From a virus, in the IMG/VR virus record IMGVR_UViG_3300048925_000245, positions 1-43,693 of that record: 43,693 nucleotides of DNA; one strand, given 5' to 3'. Shown piece by piece: positions 24,535 through 43,693 of this stretch; the first letter of the stretch is position 1, and the number at the start of each line of letters is the position of its first letter. The notes beneath the pieces were generated by a model. It was not told where the DNA came from, ran no database searches, and saw only the letters and a program-made list of their open reading frames with translations. Position numbers and translations under genes: made by a program.

Positions 24535-25397
24535 TTTCCACCCCCGATTTTTTCAGGAGCGGATTTTTTATGTTTCTCGCGGAGGATTTTTACTGCGGCG
24601 TTGTTCCAGCTCACCTGATGATGGATGCGCTTATGGGTTGAGCCCATCAGGGAAATCTTCACGCAGGACGGCGTGAACATCACCGAGTAAAAACTTTTTA
24701 CGTATGTTCCTGATGCCAGATAAAGCTCTGTCATCCCTCCACTGTTGCTTTGCGTCGTTCCCTGTCGCAGCTGTATAGCCCCGACCGTCAGAAACAATTC
24801 ACCGCGCCGCCCGAGTGTCGTGTAAGTATTCACGTCCTCATTGATACGGCCCATAAATTTAAACGGTCTGTCCGTGCTGCATATCAGGCTGTTCATCGCC
24901 TTACGCTTTAGCCAGGCCGCTTTGCCTGAGTCACCGAGGAAGTCGCCCCCCTGGGACATAGCGATACACGCGGCGGGAATTGACTCGTAATAAGCCAGCA
25001 TCGCTTCCAGAACTGCATCCAGATTTTTTATCAGCGCGTATGAAGCATCCAGATTTTTATCAATCCGTAGCTGTAAGGCGCTGTAGTCATCGTCCAGCTC
25101 AATGAAGTATTTGCATCCCACCAGCCGCGCCAGCTCAAAGCATGCGTTGCGGGCGTAAAATATGGAGCGCCGATCCCCGAAGTTATCCGCTTCATCGAAC
25201 CGACTGGCGATATCCTCCTTCGAAAAGATAAGCACCTGATCCCCGAATTTCTCAAGGTACTGCTCCCGGGTTTTATCTTCATCGTCGATAACGATAAAAA
25301 CCTTCCCCGTATAACCTGAACGTTTAAGCAGGTTGTACGTGTAAACTTTTTCCGGCCGTCCGTTGGTCAGGATGAAAGCACAGAAATCTTCACGCAT
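24531..25397 (-). CDS. TAGT-type (TET-associated) DNA-base glycosyltransferase
   Basis: 288 residues. It opens with CAFILTNGRPEKVYTYNLLKRSGY, has VFIVIDDED (33-41), then FIELDDDYSAL (98-108), where the D-D-D is the metal- and sugar-nucleotide-binding DxD of GT-A glycosyltransferases. A second acid motif INEDVNTY lies near 185. This fits the TAGT family that sugars modified bases in phage DNA, reported mostly in phages with TET/JBP oxygenases and often beside ParB-like proteins. No hydroxylase, thymidylate-type synthase or other base-making gene is in the window. The substrate therefore may be a host base or something other than hydroxymethylated cytosine. It overlaps the ParB-like gene by 8 bases. 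Confidence 0.75.
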   Translation of the reverse strand: MREDFCAFILTNGRPEKVYTYNLLKRSGYTGKVFIVIDDEDKTREQYLEKFGDQVLIFSKEDIASRFDEADNFGDRRSIFYARNACFELARLVGCKYFIELDDDYSALQLRIDKNLDASYALIKNLDAVLEAMLAYYESIPAACIAMSQGGDFLGDSGKAAWLKRKAMNSLICSTDRPFKFMGRINEDVNTYTTLGRRGELFLTVGAIQLRQGTTQSNSGGMTELYLASGTYVKSFYSVMFTPSCVKISLMGSTHKRIHHQVSWNNAAVKILREKHKKSAPEKIGGGK

Positions 25398-26175
25398 TTT
25401 CGCCCTCTTCGCTGTACACGATTTCGGCCATTTTTTTAGTCAGGTGAACGAAGCCGTTCTCTATCGCCTTTTCATAGTCGATGATCACCAGTGCAGACTC
25501 TTCAAACAAAGCCTGAACCTCTGCCCCGGCGCTGGCGTAATAATCTGCGATTTTGTTGAAGTTAAAGACCGTATGACGCTCTGCAGCGCTCAACAGGAAC
25601 TTCTCCACATCAGCAGGTAAGCCAGCCTTTTTAATCCGTGACTGTAACTCCTTTGTTTTCTCCTCGTCGTACAGATCCCCGACCTCAGGAACAATGTCTG
25701 ACGGCTCGTAAACAGGTGAGTCAATTTTGGTGGTGTACGGGTCTGCATCGCCCCCTGGCGGCTCGATGGCCACCAGCAGATCGTCAATCTCTTGTTGGGT
25801 GAAGCCCGTCAGGGAAAGATTAAAATCCGCATCCAGCAAATCAGTCACTTCAAGCTTCAGCAGATCATTATCCCAGCCAGCATTTAGCGGCAGTCTGTTA
25901 TCTGCCAGCCGGTAGGCGCGTTTCTGCTCTTCCGTCAGGCCCGTCAGCTTTATCGTCGGTACCGAAACAATGCCGATGGCCTCAGCAGCCAGAACGCGGC
26001 CATGACCAGCGATGATCTCGCCGTTCTCGTCAATCAATACAGGGTTCGTCCAGCCAAATTCCTCGATGCTGGCTACCAACTGCGCTACCTGCTCACCGCT
26101 ATGGGTTCGGGCGTTTCGCGCATATGGCGTTAGTTCCTTTAACGGGCGATATACGATCTTAAGCTTGTCGTTCAT
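25390..26175 (-). CDS. ParB/Srx-domain protein of the TAGT cassette
   Basis: 261 residues from the ATG at 26175 (GGAG four bases upstream); a TTG at 26193 is a weaker start. Residues about 5-80 carry the ParB N-terminal fold: LKELTPYARNARTHS, IEEFGWTNPVLIDENGEIIAGHGRVLAAEAIG, and RAYRLADNRLPLN. This domain is a CTP/ATP-binding or nuclease-like fold. In DNA-modification clusters it accompanies modifying enzymes. Residues 160-261 are helical and acidic. No ParA exists, so partition is unlikely. It leads the TAGT and HTH genes, with overlaps that imply coupled translation. Confidence 0.8.
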   Translation of the reverse strand: MNDKLKIVYRPLKELTPYARNARTHSGEQVAQLVASIEEFGWTNPVLIDENGEIIAGHGRVLAAEAIGIVSVPTIKLTGLTEEQKRAYRLADNRLPLNAGWDNDLLKLEVTDLLDADFNLSLTGFTQQEIDDLLVAIEPPGGDADPYTTKIDSPVYEPSDIVPEVGDLYDEEKTKELQSRIKKAGLPADVEKFLLSAAERHTVFNFNKIADYYASAGAEVQALFEESALVIIDYEKAIENGFVHLTKKMAEIVYSEEGENA

Positions 26176-26198
26176 ATTGCTCCGCTCTGACAAAATGA

Positions 26199-26250
26199 AA
26201 GCGGCTGGCAGTCATGCGCAGGGTGCGCGGTAGGGAACCACCAGCCGCTT
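26199..26250 (-). repeat. Long inverted repeat upstream of the ParB-TAGT cassette
   Basis: AAAGCGGCTGG (26199-26209) pairs with CCAGCCGCTTT (26240-26250): a perfect 11-bp stem with a 30-base loop. Read on the minus strand it ends in a U-containing tail (CTTTCATTTT), so it may be an attenuator or leader hairpin for the cassette, or a processing/packaging signal. Confidence 0.55.
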
Positions 26251-26380
26251 TATATTCTCACTAAAGGGTATCGTTGTGTTTAACCGTACTGCTGGATAAA
26301 CATTTTCGAAGCTACCAGGAAGGTGGCTTTGAAAATGTTCATGTAAATAAAGGAAAAACAGAATATAAATGCAATAAAAA

Positions 26381-26396
26381 ACCGCCCGAAGGCGGT
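26381..26396 (-). terminator. Rho-independent terminator of the two-gene cargo unit
   Basis: Stem ACCGCC / GGCGGT with tetraloop CGAA and a U-rich tail on the minus strand. It follows the stop of the membrane protein gene directly and closes the unit that starts at the promoter near 27.93 kb. Confidence 0.88.
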
Positions 26397-26969
26397 TTAG
26401 TCATTTGGCTGATGTATTCGCACTGCTAGGTAGTACAAGCCCAACAAAGTGGTGCATATCATGTTGAAGAGAATGAAACTGTATGAAAACAAAAAAACAG
26501 TTTTCGCCACAAGTAAAGCCTTAGGATAAGGTACTAGCTCCATCACCGATGTTATTGATTTTGTGAATAAAGAAGCAACTAAACCAAATCCAAAAACAAT
26601 AAAACTGACCAATGATAGATAACCGAACAGATAACATAAAAACCTACGCCTAATGAGAGGTACTTCGATTACCTTCCCTCGATAAAGCTCTTTAATCACC
26701 GGTGCTTTGCCTGCCATCTTTTCATCAATAGAAGGATTAGCAAATGTAGCAATAGCAGCCAGCGCAGCAATGTAAAAGCCAATCAAAACCTGGAGCAAAC
26801 CGTTGACTTGTGGAACAAGCCCGCCTTTACCCAACAGGCTGAATGGTTCGTCCATACACAAGTACACAACACTAATCACTGCAGCGCAGATCAGGGGGAA
26901 CCAGTAGTCATAGAGCTTCTTTTCATCGTGCTTGATCCGTAAATAACTCAGTGGGGCAAGCAGTTTCAT
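26397..26969 (-). CDS. Four-span membrane protein, second gene of a two-gene cargo unit
   Basis: 190 residues with four hydrophobic spans (about 23-40, 54-77, 109-135, 152-183) and a charged cytoplasmic loop (about 80-108: IDEKMAGKAPVIKELYRGKV). No family recognised. It starts 10 bases after the 308-residue gene, in the same direction, and the pair has its own promoter and terminator. A membrane protein paired with a soluble partner is the build of several phage-exclusion systems (e.g. Kiwa-like KwaA), but I see no sequence basis to name one. Confidence 0.75.
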   Translation of the reverse strand: MKLLAPLSYLRIKHDEKKLYDYWFPLICAAVISVVYLCMDEPFSLLGKGGLVPQVNGLLQVLIGFYIAALAAIATFANPSIDEKMAGKAPVIKELYRGKVIEVPLIRRRFLCYLFGYLSLVSFIVFGFGLVASLFTKSITSVMELVPYPKALLVAKTVFLFSYSFILFNMICTTLLGLYYLAVRIHQPND

Positions 26970-26979
26970 GTTCCACTCC

Positions 26980-27906
26980 TTAGGCGTTAAGCACCCTAAT
27001 CATCCTTTGCTGCAAGTCAGCGTGTATTTCAGCTTCACATTGTTCAATTCCGTCAGGAAGTATGATTTTTTCTTGCTTTGTAAATAGCTTTGTAGCCGCG
27101 TCTTCTCTGACATCTAAGTCTAAACTAGATTGCTTTCCATCCTTAGAGTAGCTAACAATCAGTTTGGTATACCCCTCACGTTGTGCCCGAGTTTTGAGTG
27201 AAGCAAACAAGCGTTTACGTGTTGAAACCCCAGGCTGTTTTTTTATCTTCAGCTTCACTGATTTTTCAATCATATCAGTATATGGGTTTTTATCCAGTGG
27301 TTCTTCACGTCTTGTGCTAACCAATCTGATGCCCTGCAGCCTCGAGCCAAGCAGACTTTGCTCAAAGGTTTCTGAAGCATGCGAAAGAACGTTGAGAGTT
27401 GGGCGTAGTTTGTATGTCTTACGAGTTAAAAGGCTTTGAAACTCTTCATTTTCATATGCTTTTCGTAGAATGGCATTCAGAAACGGTTCAAAAACACTCT
27501 TCGTTATACCAGGTACGCATTCAACAATAGCCTTATAGTGATCTGCTGAATCTTGAGTTGCATCTCGACTAATAACAAAGTGAGCGGAGACAGCGATTCC
27601 TTCACCGTCCAGCTTAGGTTCTCTTCTAAGGCTACCACTCTCAAGATCAGCGAAAACAGGGTCTGCCATACGTTGATCTGAAAGCTGAACTAAAAGTGTA
27701 AGTACACCTGCTTCTTCGTCGTAGGCGAGATCAGAAATTCTGAGCGCCCTAGTATTGTTGTTATATAACTTTACAGCCTCTCCTGCTTGGAAGGTGTTTA
27801 CGAGGCGAGGTATGACTTGCTCAAAAGGCAAGTATGGAGCTTCGTCATGGCTCGGTTTGATTGCAAACTCTAAAACTGAAACCCAACGCTCTAAATTTGA
27901 TAGCAC
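26980..27906 (-). CDS. 308-residue soluble protein of unknown function, cargo unit
   Basis: 308 residues from a GTG at 27906 (AGGGA seven bases upstream). Beta-rich N-terminal half (ALRISDLAYDEEAGVLTLLVQLSDQ, GEGIAVSAHFVISRD), then helices (FEPFLNAILRKAYENEEFQSLL), and a C-terminal beta region rich in Lys (KLKIKKQPGVSTRKRLF, GYTKLIVSYSKDGKQSSLDLDV). The size and the basic middle suggest nucleic-acid binding. More AT-rich than the phage backbone. Not recognised: DUF4868-like KwaB or DUF4747-like proteins were considered but no motif fixes it. Confidence 0.72.
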   Translation of the reverse strand: MLSNLERWVSVLEFAIKPSHDEAPYLPFEQVIPRLVNTFQAGEAVKLYNNNTRALRISDLAYDEEAGVLTLLVQLSDQRMADPVFADLESGSLRREPKLDGEGIAVSAHFVISRDATQDSADHYKAIVECVPGITKSVFEPFLNAILRKAYENEEFQSLLTRKTYKLRPTLNVLSHASETFEQSLLGSRLQGIRLVSTRREEPLDKNPYTDMIEKSVKLKIKKQPGVSTRKRLFASLKTRAQREGYTKLIVSYSKDGKQSSLDLDVREDAATKLFTKQEKIILPDGIEQCEAEIHADLQQRMIRVLNA

Positions 27907-27916
27907 TATTACATCC

Positions 27917-27945
27917 CTAATATTAGTGATTTAAGGGATTTTCAA
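27917..27945 (-). promoter_or_regulatory. Candidate promoter of the two-gene cargo unit
   Basis: Minus strand TTGAAA (27945-27940) and TATTAG (27922-27917) with 17-base spacing, about 10 bases before the GTG start. The rest of the gap up to the endolysin stop (27946-28127) shows no gene and no spanin. An independent promoter is the mark of a moron expressed in the lysogen. Confidence 0.5.
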
Positions 27946-28127
27946 TCAAATGAATGACAGGTTCAACCTGATAAATACACAGTTGTAATTCCATACAGCC
28001 AATTCTTTTAACGCTGTTAATGCTTCATTTACGCTGGGATTAGGAGTATGCAAAACCGATAACAATCTACAGCCCTACACCACTTTAGATGTGTCAGTTT
28101 TATTTTGGACAGCAGTCATAGCAATAG

Positions 28128-28676
28128 TTAACTGCACGGGATTTTAACACGGTTCAGCATCCAGCCAAAAATGAAGTCCTCATTGGCTTCCCTAGCTTCA
28201 GCCAGCTCCAGATAACGCGCTCCCTGACTTGAATTAAGACCGCGAAGAACGACTGTCTCACCATCCTTTCCGCGATGCCGCAGAAGAGCTTTTAACGCGG
28301 CGATGGTGCGTGGACCAATTCGCCCATCGGGATCAAGGTCAGGATAGAGTTTGCCGCGCAGGTTCAGAGCCGATAACCAGCGCTGGAAAAACTTACTTGC
28401 GACTGACGGGCCCATATTCGCGCCGGTATCGCAAAGCTCGTCTGCTATTTTCGGTGATAGTTCCGCAACTTGATCGAATCGCGGACCATACCAGTAATCA
28501 GCCTCGTAAATAGCGCGAGCCTGTTCTTTCGTCAGGGAGCGAACGTCACTGTAGCCATGAGCCAGGGCGGTTTTTGCAGTGATCCCCCAATTAGTGGGAC
28601 CGCCTTTATCAGAGGGATGGTTTACATAACCTGCCTCACGGTCCAGCAGACCATTAATAATTTCATCTTTGGTCAT
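28128..28676 (-). CDS. Endolysin, GH108 N-acetylmuramidase with peptidoglycan-binding domain
   Basis: 182 residues from the ATG at 28676 (AAAGG eight bases upstream; overlaps the holin by 14). The GH108 signature is clear: LLDREAGYVNHPSDKGGPTNWGIT, where E14 is the catalytic Glu. IYEADYWYGPRFDQV and DTGANMGPSVA follow, then a PG_binding_3 region with DPDGRIGPRTIAAL. It degrades the cell wall once the holin lets it through. No signal-anchor is present and no Rz/Rz1 spanin gene follows, which is unusual. Confidence 0.9.
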   Translation of the reverse strand: MTKDEIINGLLDREAGYVNHPSDKGGPTNWGITAKTALAHGYSDVRSLTKEQARAIYEADYWYGPRFDQVAELSPKIADELCDTGANMGPSVASKFFQRWLSALNLRGKLYPDLDPDGRIGPRTIAALKALLRHRGKDGETVVLRGLNSSQGARYLELAEAREANEDFIFGWMLNRVKIPCS

Positions 28677-29007
28677 CGTTGATACCTTTCTTACTTGCAA
28701 ATAACGTAACAGCCGCGTTAATCAGAGAGCGGCAGCGGTCTACACCAGCACCACCGACAGCGGCACCGATAACGAAAGACCAGTCCATGTCTGATACGCC
28801 AAGTTGTTCAAAAAAGCTCACCACTGCCAGTGCGACGAATCCGCAGATAAACCCAGCAGTGAATGAGCGGCGCCAGGCTACCCCGTCCCACAATGAGAAA
28901 AGCAAGGCTATAAAGAACGCAGTCAAAGCGCCCTGCAATGCCAGCCTGTTCTCATGTAAAAAATGAAGTACCGGACCCCAGCCCCCTGACGGGGTGTAGT
29001 TCTGCAT
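28663..29007 (-). CDS. Holin, lambda-family (holin_3-like)
   Basis: 114 residues from the ATG at 29007 (GGGAGGA five bases upstream). Three hydrophobic segments: LQGALTAFFIALLFSLWDG, FTAGFICGFVALAVVSFF and FVIGAAVGGAG, followed by a charged C-terminus (ASKKGINDDQR). It forms inner-membrane holes that release the endolysin encoded next. Earlier in-frame codons lie within the upstream terminator hairpin. Confidence 0.85.
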   Translation of the reverse strand: MQNYTPSGGWGPVLHFLHENRLALQGALTAFFIALLFSLWDGVAWRRSFTAGFICGFVALAVVSFFEQLGVSDMDWSFVIGAAVGGAGVDRCRSLINAAVTLFASKKGINDDQR

Positions 29008-29141: not shown

Positions 29142-29681
29142 ATGTCGAAAAGAAAATATACCCTTTATCACGCTGACAGAGGGAACAGGCTTACGCCAGG
29201 TATGGAGATAAAAGCAAACGAGCAAGGTCTGTCGCTATTTGGCGAGCATTACTTGAGTGCACTACACAGCGGCGATATCTCTAGGGTTTCGGATCCGGCA
29301 GTTCAGCGAGAAGCCATGATTGAGTCTGTAAGACAGCAATTTTTTCAGCAGCTTCCAAGTCGCTTTGAATGCATGTTCGGTGCTACCACGATTGAAGACG
29401 CATGCTATTTCGCCAAAGCCGTTACGCCTTTGCCTTCACATCCAATAAAAATTTATGAAGTCTTTTGTGAAGCTTTTTCAGTCCATGACATGAACTGGCT
29501 AGATTACGAAAACGACAATATAGAAGTCAGAATAAATTACTGTAAACAGTACTGGTGGACTTCAATCTCGCAACACAGACCCGAAGAGGGTGAGATGAGA
29601 ATCCCAAGACTGGAAGCTTTGATAAGATTACCGGCTACTGTTGGGAATGTTGTTTATGAAGTTCCTGCCCCCCTGACCTGA
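29142..29681 (+). CDS. ART-fold-like (DUF2441-type) cargo protein between Q and the lysis genes
   Basis: 179 residues on the plus strand, against the late genes. AAGGA stands five bases before the ATG. The opening (YTLYHADRGNRLTPGMEI), the conserved-looking LPSRFECMFGATTIEDACYFA (about 71-91) and YEVFCEAFSVHDMNWLDY fit the H-R...R/S-x-F pattern of DUF2441 and related ADP-ribosyl-transferase-fold proteins. Enzyme activity is not proven. Its position inside the late leader, reading the other way, suggests a moron expressed in the lysogen. Confidence 0.65.
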   Translation: MSKRKYTLYHADRGNRLTPGMEIKANEQGLSLFGEHYLSALHSGDISRVSDPAVQREAMIESVRQQFFQQLPSRFECMFGATTIEDACYFAKAVTPLPSHPIKIYEVFCEAFSVHDMNWLDYENDNIEVRINYCKQYWWTSISQHRPEEGEMRIPRLEALIRLPATVGNVVYEVPAPLT

Positions 29682-37158: not shown

Positions 37159-37422
37159 ATGGATATTACTCTGGCGTTTAAAAAATTAGCCCTCGTTAAC
37201 GGCGAGGAAGCCGTTATCAGCATTGCCCCCAGCGCAATGAAAAAGATGGTCATGAATTTAGTGGCGAATGGTTATTTATCCACTGAGGATTTAATCATTT
37301 TTGCAATCGGTCAGGTGAAAATCTGTGACCGCAAAAACCTTGAGCATGTTTTGCCCGACAACGTTTTAAAGAAATTAACTGAAGTTTTTGAATCCGTAAA
37401 AGAAGGAGAAAACAATGACTGA
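37159..37422 (+). CDS. 87-residue early protein, function unknown
   Basis: Start at 37159 (AGAGG seven bases upstream; upstream ATGs at 37129 and 37153 fit worse). MDITLAFKKLALVNGEEAVIS, then KKMVMNLVANGYLSTEDLI and a helical end. Overlaps the RecE-N fusion by 8 bases. It may act with the recombination genes. Confidence 0.62.
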   Translation: MDITLAFKKLALVNGEEAVISIAPSAMKKMVMNLVANGYLSTEDLIIFAIGQVKICDRKNLEHVLPDNVLKKLTEVFESVKEGENND

Positions 37423-39760
37423 CCAGAAAATTTTCATCGCGGGATATTTCCCAGATGAAGAATCAGAAAAGGCAGGTATTAAGCGTGTCGCTACCGCGTT
37501 CAATGCGAAGGATATTGATCGGGCAAAAGCAAAGGCAAATTTCATCTTTCTGGAAGAGTATGAACCCGCTCAGGATGCGGCGTATAAATTGCTTATTTGT
37601 GAAGATACGCCAGACGTTCCCGCCCGCCCTTCTCGTGGCGTATGGGACACTGAGTTTCTTTATACATACGACTGGCCTGAAGACGTTGGCCACCCTGTAA
37701 AACGCCAGGCTGAGAAAGTCGATTTTGACAAACTCTCTCGCGAATTGCAGATCGCGTGCCTGATTAAATACGGCTCTACCGAGTTAACTAAAAACGATCT
37801 GCCTGGTGCGCTTGAAATTACCCAGGACGATGACAGTTTTGAAGGGCATATTTACGCCGCCATTATCAAAACGCCTTCAGTCGCTAACATGTTCCATGAG
37901 CGTATTGAAAACGCGATCGGCTGGTTAGGTGCTAAGTGCGATCACTCCGCTAAATGGCCTGAGATCCAGAAAGAGCTGGCTGCATGGGAAAAGCGACAGA
38001 ACGCTGAACGCAAACAAACCGGTTCGTCAAAATCAGTTGTCGATATCGCCCGCGAAAGAGCTGCGGCCGAAAAACTAAACCAACAAAATCCGGCTCCAGT
38101 TCACTTGCAGGATGAAGAGTCATTAAAGCGCAACATTGCCCTGGGTCTGGTCGCTAAGGCGATGGATTTCGACATCCTCAACCCTCCGGCGAGCATCGTT
38201 AACCGCGCACGCGAAATTATCAAACTGAAGGAGAAGCCCTTCCCTGCATGGTTAGCGGCAATGAGCGCTACGCTCGGCATTTATGAATACTCCACCGTTC
38301 AGATCATCTACAGCGTGAAAATCTCACCTGAAGATATCGACAAAACCACTGGAGCTATTCAGGGACACATTAACCGCACGTTTACCGAAACGGACCATGC
38401 CAACCCGTCCGCAGAAATGCTGGCCATTGCCTGCGGTACCGTGAAAACCGAAGAGGCTAATAATAATGAGACCAAACAGAACGAAACGGGCGCAAATGGG
38501 CCGCTGGAAACTGCGCCACAGGTAGAGCGTACGGGCCCGTTCTATTACCTCTTTTCAGATGGTGTAAAAGTTGGACGCGCCAACAAGATGCCAGGCCTTG
38601 AAAAAGCGCTGGCTGATGGTGGCAAGGAAATCAGCCAGGAAGAGTATTTAGCCCGTAAGAACGGCACATACGAAGCCCCTGACGCTCCCGCTAATACCTC
38701 AGGCTCGGGTAATGAGCCTGAAGTGACCAATCACGGCGCGGGTCGCTTTTCCATTGATGGATTGCTGGCAGAAAAACCAAAAGAAGACGAGGCAAAAAGT
38801 GAAAATAGTCATGTTGAACAGAAATCAGAGAATGATAACACTGCCGCTGAAAGCGTCCAGGCGGCTATTAATGCCCGCGCAGAAATTGCCGAAGCTGAAT
38901 ACAACGGTTATACGGATAATTCAGACAAAGAAAATCTGTCTATCTGGATGCGGGTGCATAGAACAGACCCCAGTCGGACAAAGAGCAAAATCCAGTACGG
39001 CAAAGAATTGCCTGATGGAACAAAGCCAATACTACGTGTTACTACAAGTATTAACCCGACCTATCAGACAGAACGTGCAACAAAACTCTTCGGACCATTT
39101 GGTATTGGCTGGGGCGTAAATATTGAAATGGAAAGATTTGATAATGGTATGCCATTTACTGAACCGACCTATGATGCCAATGGGCGTTTTACAGGTAAGA
39201 AAGTAATTCGAGATAATGACGGCACCATTATCTTTACGCTTAACCATACAATGTTGATTTCGCTATGGTACATCCACAATGGAGTAAAGGGTGTAATTAG
39301 TAGCTATGGTCACACAAAGTATTTATATCAAACGCTTAACGGTATTACTTGCGATGATGAGTATGCTAAAAAAAGTTTAACCGATGCCACAACGAAAGCA
39401 CTTTCACAGCTTGGGTTTAGTGCTGATGTTTATGGCGGCTTGTTCGAAAATAGTGAATATAGCGAACAAAACAAACTTGAACATGATCTGATTAATGCAA
39501 CGAATAGAGCTGATGAAGTGGTTCGCATACGGGAAGAACTTGATCAACGTTTCAAAGCAAATGTTGAAACGATGAAATCTGCCAAAACCCCTAATGAGGT
39601 TTCAAAGATTGCCAGCAGTCTCACCCGCAAAATTGGAGTGCATTTAAAAGCAGCAAATGCAACGGGTGATCATGATTACGTCAAATACCTTGACGGCCGA
39701 CTGAATCGCCTTGAATCCATAAAAGTTGAATGCCTCAAAGCTCTAGAGGAAAAAGCATGA
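37415..39760 (+). CDS. RecE-N domain fused to a Rad52/ERF-like single-strand annealing domain
   Basis: 781 residues. Residues about 236-345 (NIALGLVAKAMDFDILNPP, FTETDHANPSAEMLAIACG) follow the N-terminal, non-nuclease part of E. coli RecE, including TETDHANP. A low-complexity linker runs to about 490. Residues about 508-690 look like an annealing protein (SSAP): WMRVHRTDPSRTKSKI, ERATKLFGPFGIGWG, DDEYAKKSLTDATTKALSQLGFSADVYGG. RecE's C-terminal exonuclease is absent. The DNA visibly becomes more AT-rich in the second half, suggesting a mosaic join. Likely role: annealing recombination of phage DNA. The next gene is Gp157-like, often beside such annealases. Confidence 0.75.
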   Translation: MTDQKIFIAGYFPDEESEKAGIKRVATAFNAKDIDRAKAKANFIFLEEYEPAQDAAYKLLICEDTPDVPARPSRGVWDTEFLYTYDWPEDVGHPVKRQAEKVDFDKLSRELQIACLIKYGSTELTKNDLPGALEITQDDDSFEGHIYAAIIKTPSVANMFHERIENAIGWLGAKCDHSAKWPEIQKELAAWEKRQNAERKQTGSSKSVVDIARERAAAEKLNQQNPAPVHLQDEESLKRNIALGLVAKAMDFDILNPPASIVNRAREIIKLKEKPFPAWLAAMSATLGIYEYSTVQIIYSVKISPEDIDKTTGAIQGHINRTFTETDHANPSAEMLAIACGTVKTEEANNNETKQNETGANGPLETAPQVERTGPFYYLFSDGVKVGRANKMPGLEKALADGGKEISQEEYLARKNGTYEAPDAPANTSGSGNEPEVTNHGAGRFSIDGLLAEKPKEDEAKSENSHVEQKSENDNTAAESVQAAINARAEIAEAEYNGYTDNSDKENLSIWMRVHRTDPSRTKSKIQYGKELPDGTKPILRVTTSINPTYQTERATKLFGPFGIGWGVNIEMERFDNGMPFTEPTYDANGRFTGKKVIRDNDGTIIFTLNHTMLISLWYIHNGVKGVISSYGHTKYLYQTLNGITCDDEYAKKSLTDATTKALSQLGFSADVYGGLFENSEYSEQNKLEHDLINATNRADEVVRIREELDQRFKANVETMKSAKTPNEVSKIASSLTRKIGVHLKAANATGDHDYVKYLDGRLNRLESIKVECLKALEEKA

Positions 39761-42163: not shown

Positions 42164-42451
42164 ATGCTTTTGACACTCAAAGAGTGGGCGTGCGATGTCT
42201 ATCAAGATCCGCCGTCTATTGGAACTTTGCAACGCTGGGCGAGGAACGGGAATATTTACCCACCTCCAGAAAAACATGGGCGTGAATATAAAGTTCAACA
42301 TGATGCTTTTTATATCAAACCGAATAAAGCGTGTAGCAAAATCCAACATCAAAACCCAAATGGCCGAACTGGTAAAAAAAGCAGCTTACTGGAGAGGATT
42401 GAACATGAGCAGGAAATACAATCGCGATCTACCGCGAAATCTAACTTATAG
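42164..42451 (+). CDS. xis: Excisionase Xis
   Basis: 95 residues. MLLTLKEWACDVYQ, TLQRWARNGNIYPPPEKHGREYKV match lambda/HK022 Xis (W and PPP-x-K-x-G-R-E-Y wing). It bends attachment DNA to favour excision. The end overlaps integrase by 47 bases, as in lambda. Confidence 0.9.
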   Translation: MLLTLKEWACDVYQDPPSIGTLQRWARNGNIYPPPEKHGREYKVQHDAFYIKPNKACSKIQHQNPNGRTGKKSSLLERIEHEQEIQSRSTAKSNL

Positions 42452-43472
42452 GAAAAAATATAAAAAGTATTATTGGCGTAATCCTGTTAGTGGAAAAGAG
42501 TTTCCTCTCGATGGACTTTCAAAAAGTCAGGCGATAGCTCAGGCTATCGAAGCTAATAATTATATTACTAATAACTTTACGCCCAGTGGTTTACTGCAGC
42601 GAATCACGGACGAGAAACAGTTAACTATGGGTGATTGGCTTGAGCGTTACAGCGTCATACTGCAGCGCAGAGAGCTGGCGGCCAATACCTATAAAGTGCG
42701 TGCGGGGCAGATTGCCACCATCAATGAAAAAATGGGTGAGCTGATACTGAACAAGATAAATACTCGCCATATAGCTGACTTCCTTGATACATGGATCGCA
42801 GAAGGAAAAAAGACCATGGCCGCAACTATGCGCTCTGTGCTGATCGATATTTTTCGGGAGGCGATTGCCGAAGGCGCACTGACGCTTAATCCGGTTGAAC
42901 CGACGAGAACGCCAAAGATCGTCGTATTCCGTCAACGTCTAAGCTTGGAAATGTACGGACCGATCAGAGCCGCAGCTGATACTTTGTCGCCCTGGTTACC
43001 ACTGGCGATGGATCTTGCGTTGGTAACCGCACAGCGCCGCGAGGATATAGCGAACATGCGGTTCACTGATGTTTATGATGACCGTTTACACGTAACCCAG
43101 ATAAAAACGGGGGCAATGATTGCCATACCGTTATCCCTGTCACTGAACGGAATACGTCTGAGCGCAATCATTGATCGCTGTCGTTTGTTGAGTACAACTG
43201 ATTTTCTGATAAGTGCCGGCAAGCGTAAAAACAGTCCTGACGGAGCTATTCATCTGGACAGTTTGACGAAAGGTTTTGTGAAGGCGAGGAAATTGTCGGG
43301 GCTGGAGTTTTCTGAACATCCCCCCTCTTTCCATGAGATCAGAAGCTTGTCTGGTCGCACGTATGAAGCGAGTCGGGGAAAGGATTTTGTCCAGAAACTG
43401 TTCGGTCATACATCCAAAAAAATGACCGAAAAATACTTGGATGTGAGGGAGAAAGTGTTTACATTGTTGTAA
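42405..43472 (+). CDS. int: Lambda-type tyrosine integrase
   Basis: 355 residues from the ATG at 42405 (GGAGAGG upstream); the frame stays open to 42195 only as a shadow of xis. Lambda Int has 356. Catalytic residues: R211 (TAQRRED), K234, H310 and R313 (FHEIRSL), H335 (FGHTS), Y344 (EKYLD). N-terminal arm-binding domain about 1-65. It targets the SdsR terminator next door. Confidence 0.93.
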   Translation: MSRKYNRDLPRNLTYRKKYKKYYWRNPVSGKEFPLDGLSKSQAIAQAIEANNYITNNFTPSGLLQRITDEKQLTMGDWLERYSVILQRRELAANTYKVRAGQIATINEKMGELILNKINTRHIADFLDTWIAEGKKTMAATMRSVLIDIFREAIAEGALTLNPVEPTRTPKIVVFRQRLSLEMYGPIRAAADTLSPWLPLAMDLALVTAQRREDIANMRFTDVYDDRLHVTQIKTGAMIAIPLSLSLNGIRLSAIIDRCRLLSTTDFLISAGKRKNSPDGAIHLDSLTKGFVKARKLSGLEFSEHPPSFHEIRSLSGRTYEASRGKDFVQKLFGHTSKKMTEKYLDVREKVFTLL

Positions 43473-43525: not shown

Positions 43526-43575
43526 TCGCGCCTTGTAACCCCATGATTTATAAGGCGGATAAAAAAAGACCGAAT
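43526..43575. other. Right attachment site (attR) region at the SdsR terminator
   Basis: Phage sequence ends and host SdsR begins around 43553-43567 (GCGGATAAAAAAAGACC). The crossover should lie in or just beside the terminator, since the whole 104-base SdsR with its U-run is intact. The exact core needs the attL copy. Confidence 0.6.
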
Positions 43576-43664
43576 ACGATTCCTGTATTCGGTCCAGGGA
43601 AATGGCTCTTGGGAGAGAGCCGTGCGCTAAAAGTTGGCATTAATGCAGGCTAAGTCGCCTTGCC
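43561..43664 (-). ncRNA. sdsR: SdsR (RyeB) small RNA
   Basis: The minus strand from 43664 reads GGCAAGGCGACTTAGCCTGC and continues through the well-known SdsR body. It ends in the terminator stem GACCGAATAC...GTATTCGGTC and a run of U at 43561, 104 bases in all, the known length. SdsR is a sigmaS-dependent Hfq sRNA that represses porin, tolC and mutS messages. The opposite strand normally encodes SraC/RyeA. The locus is a known insertion hot spot in Salmonella. Confidence 0.95.
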
Positions 43665-43669
43665 TTTTA

Positions 43670-43676
43670 AGAATAG
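43670..43676 (-). promoter_or_regulatory. SdsR sigmaS-type -10 element
   Basis: CTATTCT on the minus strand six bases before the SdsR start, close to the sigmaS consensus CTATACT. The prophage does not touch it. Confidence 0.7.
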
Positions 43677-43693
43677 ATGACGACGCCAGGTTT

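Follow-up and report, generated by a model that had tools for sequence, protein, structure and literature searches.

Results

A two-gene operon between the lysis and packaging genes of a prophage

The DNA examined here (the window, 43,693 nucleotides) is a temperate tailed phage in prophage form, and genes A and B lie between its lysis and packaging genes (Table 1). PHROGs assignments place an endolysin, a holin and a Q antiterminator on one flank and a ParB-like protein, a glucosyltransferase-like protein and the small and large terminase on the other, in agreement with the position given by a first-pass annotation made from the sequence alone. Both open reading frames are present as that annotation described, separated by 10 nt in one minus-strand operon, with an RBS-like AGGGA 5′ of the GTG of gene A. 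Directly 3′ of gene B, the minus strand (26398-26379) reads AAACCGCC-TTCG-GGCGGTTT followed by a T-run, which bears out the strong terminator called earlier. The pair segment is likewise AT-rich, with 42.2% GC as compared to 48.6% for the whole window, and an equally low GC content is reached in only 7.5% of stretches of the same size. Two further parts of the description did not hold. The pair had been credited with its own promoter, but a scan of the region found five sigma-70-like sites as compared to 4.3 in shuffled sequences, no better than chance, and none of the five is well placed just upstream of A. Gene product A had been called basic, but it is near neutral (pI 6.99, net charge 0); gene product B is basic (pI 9.2). 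A LexA box was looked for upstream of A and none was found.

Table 1. Features of the A-B locus and its flanks, in window coordinates
Feature	Coordinates	Strand	Description
Gene A	26980..27906	-	308 aa, GTG start, PDC-M53A / RexA-pp-like soluble protein, phrog_16499
Gene B	26397..26969	-	190 aa, four-helix membrane protein, PDC-M53B / RexB-pp-like, phrog_8257
Intrinsic terminator of the A-B pair	26379..26398	-	8-bp stem, TTCG loop, T-run
Exchangeable cargo segment	26305..28134	.	limits are the breaks in DNA identity to close relatives
Endolysin flank	28128..28700	-	phrog_315
ParB-like protein flank	25390..26193	-	93-97% identical in relatives without A and B

Other features of the prophage were recorded alongside the pair. 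At the right end of the window lie the small RNA genes SdsR/RyeB (43561-43660, minus strand) and SraC/RyeA (43557-43693, plus strand), close to a lambda-type integrase (42195-43472); the prophage adjoins this host small RNA locus and is perhaps integrated in it. A sok antitoxin RNA (Rfam RF01794; 32389-32541, minus strand) marks a hok/sok-type module inside the prophage, and the sok stretch shares 77% identity with the mokC region found in almost every E. coli genome. The early region also holds a 781-aa open reading frame (37415-39760, plus strand) without any Pfam match.

In close relatives the same position is occupied by other genes

Seven loci (L218, L219, L221, L222, L223, L224 and L234) retain the ParB-like gene in the near-identical form given in Table 1 and lack both A and B. 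DNA identity to these relatives breaks at 28135, within the last endolysin codons, and returns at 26304 (L218) or at 26184-26209 (the others). What they encode between these points varies: a protein of 141 aa, an alpha/beta hydrolase, a 161-aa and a 125-aa reverse-strand protein, or short open reading frames. Because seven close relatives hold other genes exactly there, the position of A and B is a cargo slot. The earlier suggestion that homologous pairs might swap in and out at this site is thus upheld for the position itself, with other genes as the alternatives. None of the alternative cargo proteins tested matched a PADLOC model.

The hydrolase (L222 3861-4721; Abhydrolase_1, 9.9e-26) is an unusual prophage cargo. 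In relatives, a small Rz1-like lipoprotein gene follows the lysis genes (for example, L218 6005-6196); it was not found in the window at 27907-28134 and seems to have been replaced by the A-B cargo. A 179-aa DUF2441 protein is encoded in reverse orientation within the late region of the window (29142-29681, plus strand), and its gene is likely further cargo.

The pair belongs to a widespread candidate defense family

Neither protein matched Pfam (up to an E-value of 10) or NCBIfam, a sequence search of the PDB returned nothing for either, and PHROGs groups both within families of unknown function. Against the models of PADLOC-DB 2.0.0, by contrast, both were assigned to the candidate defense system PDC-M53 (A to PDC-M53A, 8.9e-26; B to PDC-M53B, 8.3e-53). 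The first-pass description of the proteins as unknown thus stands for Pfam and NCBIfam and falls for PADLOC, which has models for both. A literature search for the name PDC-M53 found no paper.

Homologous loci were taken from genomes (80 of the 88 confirmed) and from viral contigs (80 of 147). They come mostly from Proteobacteria (Alpha-, Beta- and Gammaproteobacteria), with a few from other phyla, and their carriers are tailed prophages, PM2-like prophages, including two from Vibrio, and chromosomes. Gene A was directly upstream of gene B in 163 of the 169 loci fetched, with a median gap of 7 nt (range, from an overlap of 86 nt to a spacing of 67 nt). The distance matrices of A and B are correlated with r = 0.81, as compared to a maximum of 0.07 in 500 permutations, and the pairing is far from chance. 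One pair is otherwise intact but has gene A in two parts ∼1.1 kb apart (L110 5868-7988), where it was probably split by an insertion. Distribution within Pseudomonas is patchy, since gene A was present in only 6 of 400 species genomes. Among the genes that lie next to the pair are those for restriction enzymes, Fic, PD-Lambda-5 and HEC-06, as compared to housekeeping-helicase-type hits in control stretches drawn at random from genomes; with small and uneven samples, this contrast is qualitative and suggestive only.

PDC-M53 and RexAB-pp of Pseudomonas putida

A scan with a Pseudomonas-type B recovered a locus (L424) on IMG/VR contig 637000222_000004, whose taxon number, 637000222, we take to be that of P. 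putida KT2440. Its genes run in the order S24/HTH repressor, A (330 aa, 36.6 kDa), B (188 aa) and a reverse-strand HicB. Its A protein matches the PDC-M53A family HMM at 4.7e-87, and the window proteins align to their counterparts with 28% identity over 148 aa for A (E-value 3e-7) and 32% over 189 aa for B (E-value 3e-24). A search with the Pfam model for RexA gave no hit over the cut-off in 250 Pseudomonas genomes.

A RexAB-type defense of P. putida prophage P1, RexAB-pp (PP_5643/PP_5644), was published in January 2026 (PMC12894663). In that prophage a CI-like repressor (PP_3896) lies upstream of the pair, hicAB2 (PP_3900-3899) is next in numbering, and RexA-pp-His has a mass of 37.5 kDa (PMC12894663). 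The repressor-A-B-HicB layout and the size of A thus match at the two loci. For this reason, and with the taxon number, L424 is almost certainly prophage P1 of KT2440. By the context and size of L424 and its match to the family at the level of sequence, PDC-M53 and RexAB-pp are taken to be one family.

According to the same article, loss of either gene sensitizes P. putida to phages, both genes being needed, and RexA-pp binds DNA, non-specifically and as a dimer (PMC12894663). RexB-pp has four membrane helices and is a growth-suppressing, membrane-damaging effector; when RexA-pp is overexpressed, RexB-pp suppresses growth and permeabilizes part of the cells (PMC12894663). A two-hybrid assay reported there saw no contact between the two proteins, and a DALI search with the model of RexA-pp in the presence of DNA matched lambda RexA (8TWQ) with a Z score of 8.8 (PMC12894663).

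Predicted structures and conserved residues

AlphaFold2 models were built with 107 homologues for A and 111 for B. The model of A (pLDDT 92.7) shows a soluble protein with two halves, both rich in beta strands and both capped by a helix. That of B (pLDDT 94.2) has four long helices of membrane length, and a beta-hairpin separates helices two and three. The models agree with the earlier prediction of a soluble, beta-rich protein with a four-span membrane partner. B further contains a conserved GFYIAALAAxATF segment in the second helix and a conserved TRRRF at the third. A fold search of the PDB with either model gave no significant match. Among viral models (BFVD), four uncharacterized phage proteins were the first matches of A (E-values 9e-13 to 2e-8), and the first named match was RdgC of Xanthomonas phage FoX4 (E-value 2.3e-3, probability 0.97); among the matches listed, those below it had a probability of 0.51 or less. 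Lambda RexA has the RdgC fold by crystallography and, as a dimer, binds DNA non-specifically (PMC11077077). RdgC as the first named viral match, together with the RdgC fold of RexA, may point to a Rex-like fold for A, and the order of elements in the model (strand, helix, strands, helix, second beta domain, C-terminal helix) can be read as fitting the RdgC/RexA plan. RexA (8twq) and RdgC (2owl) are both in the PDB, and neither was among the best 50 fold matches of A. Profile comparison of A with RexA or RdgC by hhalign likewise gave no match (probability 0.1-1.7), but the method is without power here because the accepted relation of RexA to RdgC, used as positive control, also gave no signal. 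B had no Pfam match to lambda RexB and an hhalign probability of 1.5.

All 107 A proteins in the alignment have the histidine at position 109, and Arg7, Asp77, Glu129 and Asp205 are near-invariant (81-94%). These polar residues may mark a binding or active site.

Discussion

A probable divergent RexAB-type exclusion system

The guess that this is a prophage exclusion or defense pair, in which a soluble sensor works with a membrane partner, is now well supported, because both proteins match a PADLOC candidate system, the slot that holds them swaps its content, and they are homologous to a protective pair of P. putida. That the system was undescribed no longer stands, given the PADLOC entry and the publication of RexAB-pp (PMC12894663). 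We consider it probable, with good confidence, that the window pair is a divergent RexAB-type exclusion system (PDC-M53 = RexAB-pp) carried as temperate-phage cargo, in which a RexA-like A switches on B. Two properties of A count against this reading: the protein is not basic, and its invariant His109 and the other polar residues resemble a catalytic or binding site more than they do a simple DNA clamp.

By homology, the window copy would act like RexAB-pp. A would be a RexA-like, DNA-binding sensor of two domains and B a four-helix effector of the inner membrane, silent and held inactive in the lysogen. Upon infection by another phage, A would respond to a phage protein or to an intermediate of replication or recombination and switch B on, perhaps through contact between the two proteins. 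B might then perturb the inner membrane, so that growth stops and the infection aborts.

Other readings of the pair

The conserved residues could instead belong to an enzymatic sensor-effector system. A would then have an active site for producing a signal or cleaving nucleic acid, B would serve as effector or anchor in the membrane, and the likeness to Rex would be one of fold only. Conservation of His109 throughout the alignment, with the acidic residues and Arg7 close behind, speaks for it, but no enzyme family matches A, and RexA-pp is described as DNA-binding with a RexA-like model, no enzymatic test of it being reported in the part of the article available (PMC12894663). We regard this as unlikely. 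Equally doubtful is a variant in which PDC-M53 is Rex-like in layout and fold but a catalytic or ligand-binding site allows A to produce or read the signal by which B is gated; if true, RexAB would represent an entire class of membrane exclusion systems that are gated by a signal, and not DNA-triggered pores.

Slightly less plausible still is that the pair serves phage physiology, by tuning lysogeny and lysis or helping lysis or energetics, and that exclusion merely follows from this, a view that has been put forward for lambda Rex. In the window the pair shares the strand of the late genes and adjoins the lysis cassette, it directly precedes the holins in Salmonella phage F1055, and RexA biases the bistable switch of lambda (PMC11077077). 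Against this, the pair of Shigella phage SfII, between Q and holin, is not on the late-gene strand but on the opposite one, relatives do without the pair at this slot, and unrelated PM2-like prophages and chromosomes carry it as well. Deletion of the P. putida pair, moreover, sensitizes cells to phages (PMC12894663).

A Kiwa-like system, with B as a KwaA-type membrane sensor and A as a KwaB-type effector binding injected DNA, is very improbable: the layout is alike (a four-helix membrane protein of ∼190 aa with a soluble partner of ∼310 aa), but hhalign against alignments made from loci found with PF16162 gave 0.1% for A with KwaB and 0.3-2.4% for B with KwaA. The structure search against KwaA and KwaB proposed in the first-pass annotation found no fold match, KwaB structures being in the PDB but absent from the best 50 matches of A, and the PADLOC KwaB models, which recognize KwaB, did not match A. 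A was thus not identified as a KwaB (DUF4868) protein by Pfam, PADLOC, fold search or hhalign, nor B as a KwaA-type protein by the latter two; profile comparison largely refutes kinship with Kiwa, and the fold search gives it no support. Gene order is no argument against Kiwa, because in one Kiwa-type locus (L176 1189-2672) the order is reversed, the gene for a membrane protein of 186 aa coming after KwaB. Aliivibrio sifiae has a Kiwa pair (L172 471-2124) ∼6.5 kb from a PDC-M53 pair (L074 6991-8534).

Significance

RexAB is the oldest known exclusion system, and what triggers Rex is a 70-year-old question. What appears to be new here is the link between PDC-M53 and RexAB-pp, which provides a PADLOC candidate so far listed without explanation with a function and enlarges a family of five described systems to one of well over 100 loci. 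That count of five RexAB-like systems is as of January 2026 (PMC12894663). The homologous pairs are found in phages, including the well-studied SfII, in PM2-like prophages and in chromosomes. Deep alignments, with their invariant residues and sensor-effector covariation, together with carriers available in the laboratory, open the way to a test of the Rex trigger.

Comparison with known systems

Kiwa resembles the window pair in its four-helix membrane protein, soluble partner and similar sizes, and differs in having no sequence or fold match and, usually, the reverse gene order. RdgC (PF04381) resembles A in that the model of A matches the RdgC of a phage in structure; it differs in its absence from the best 50 PDB fold matches, in the lack of a profile match and in having no membrane partner. 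Lambda RexA/RexB (PF15969/PF15968) share the A-then-B order, the soluble sensor with a four-helix membrane protein and carriage by a prophage, along with a possible fold relation via RexA-pp and RdgC. They give no sequence-profile match to the window pair and are of other sizes (279 and 144 aa as compared to 308 and 190 aa), and the window pair lies outside the immunity region and has a set of invariant polar residues in A. From PDC-M53, an entry that PADLOC lists without function or mechanism, no difference was found, both window proteins matching its models. RexAB-pp is only ∼28-32% identical to the window pair and lies downstream of a CI repressor, whereas the window pair lies between lysis and packaging genes, but the two agree in gene order, protein sizes and a four-helix B, and by sequence appear to be of the same family.
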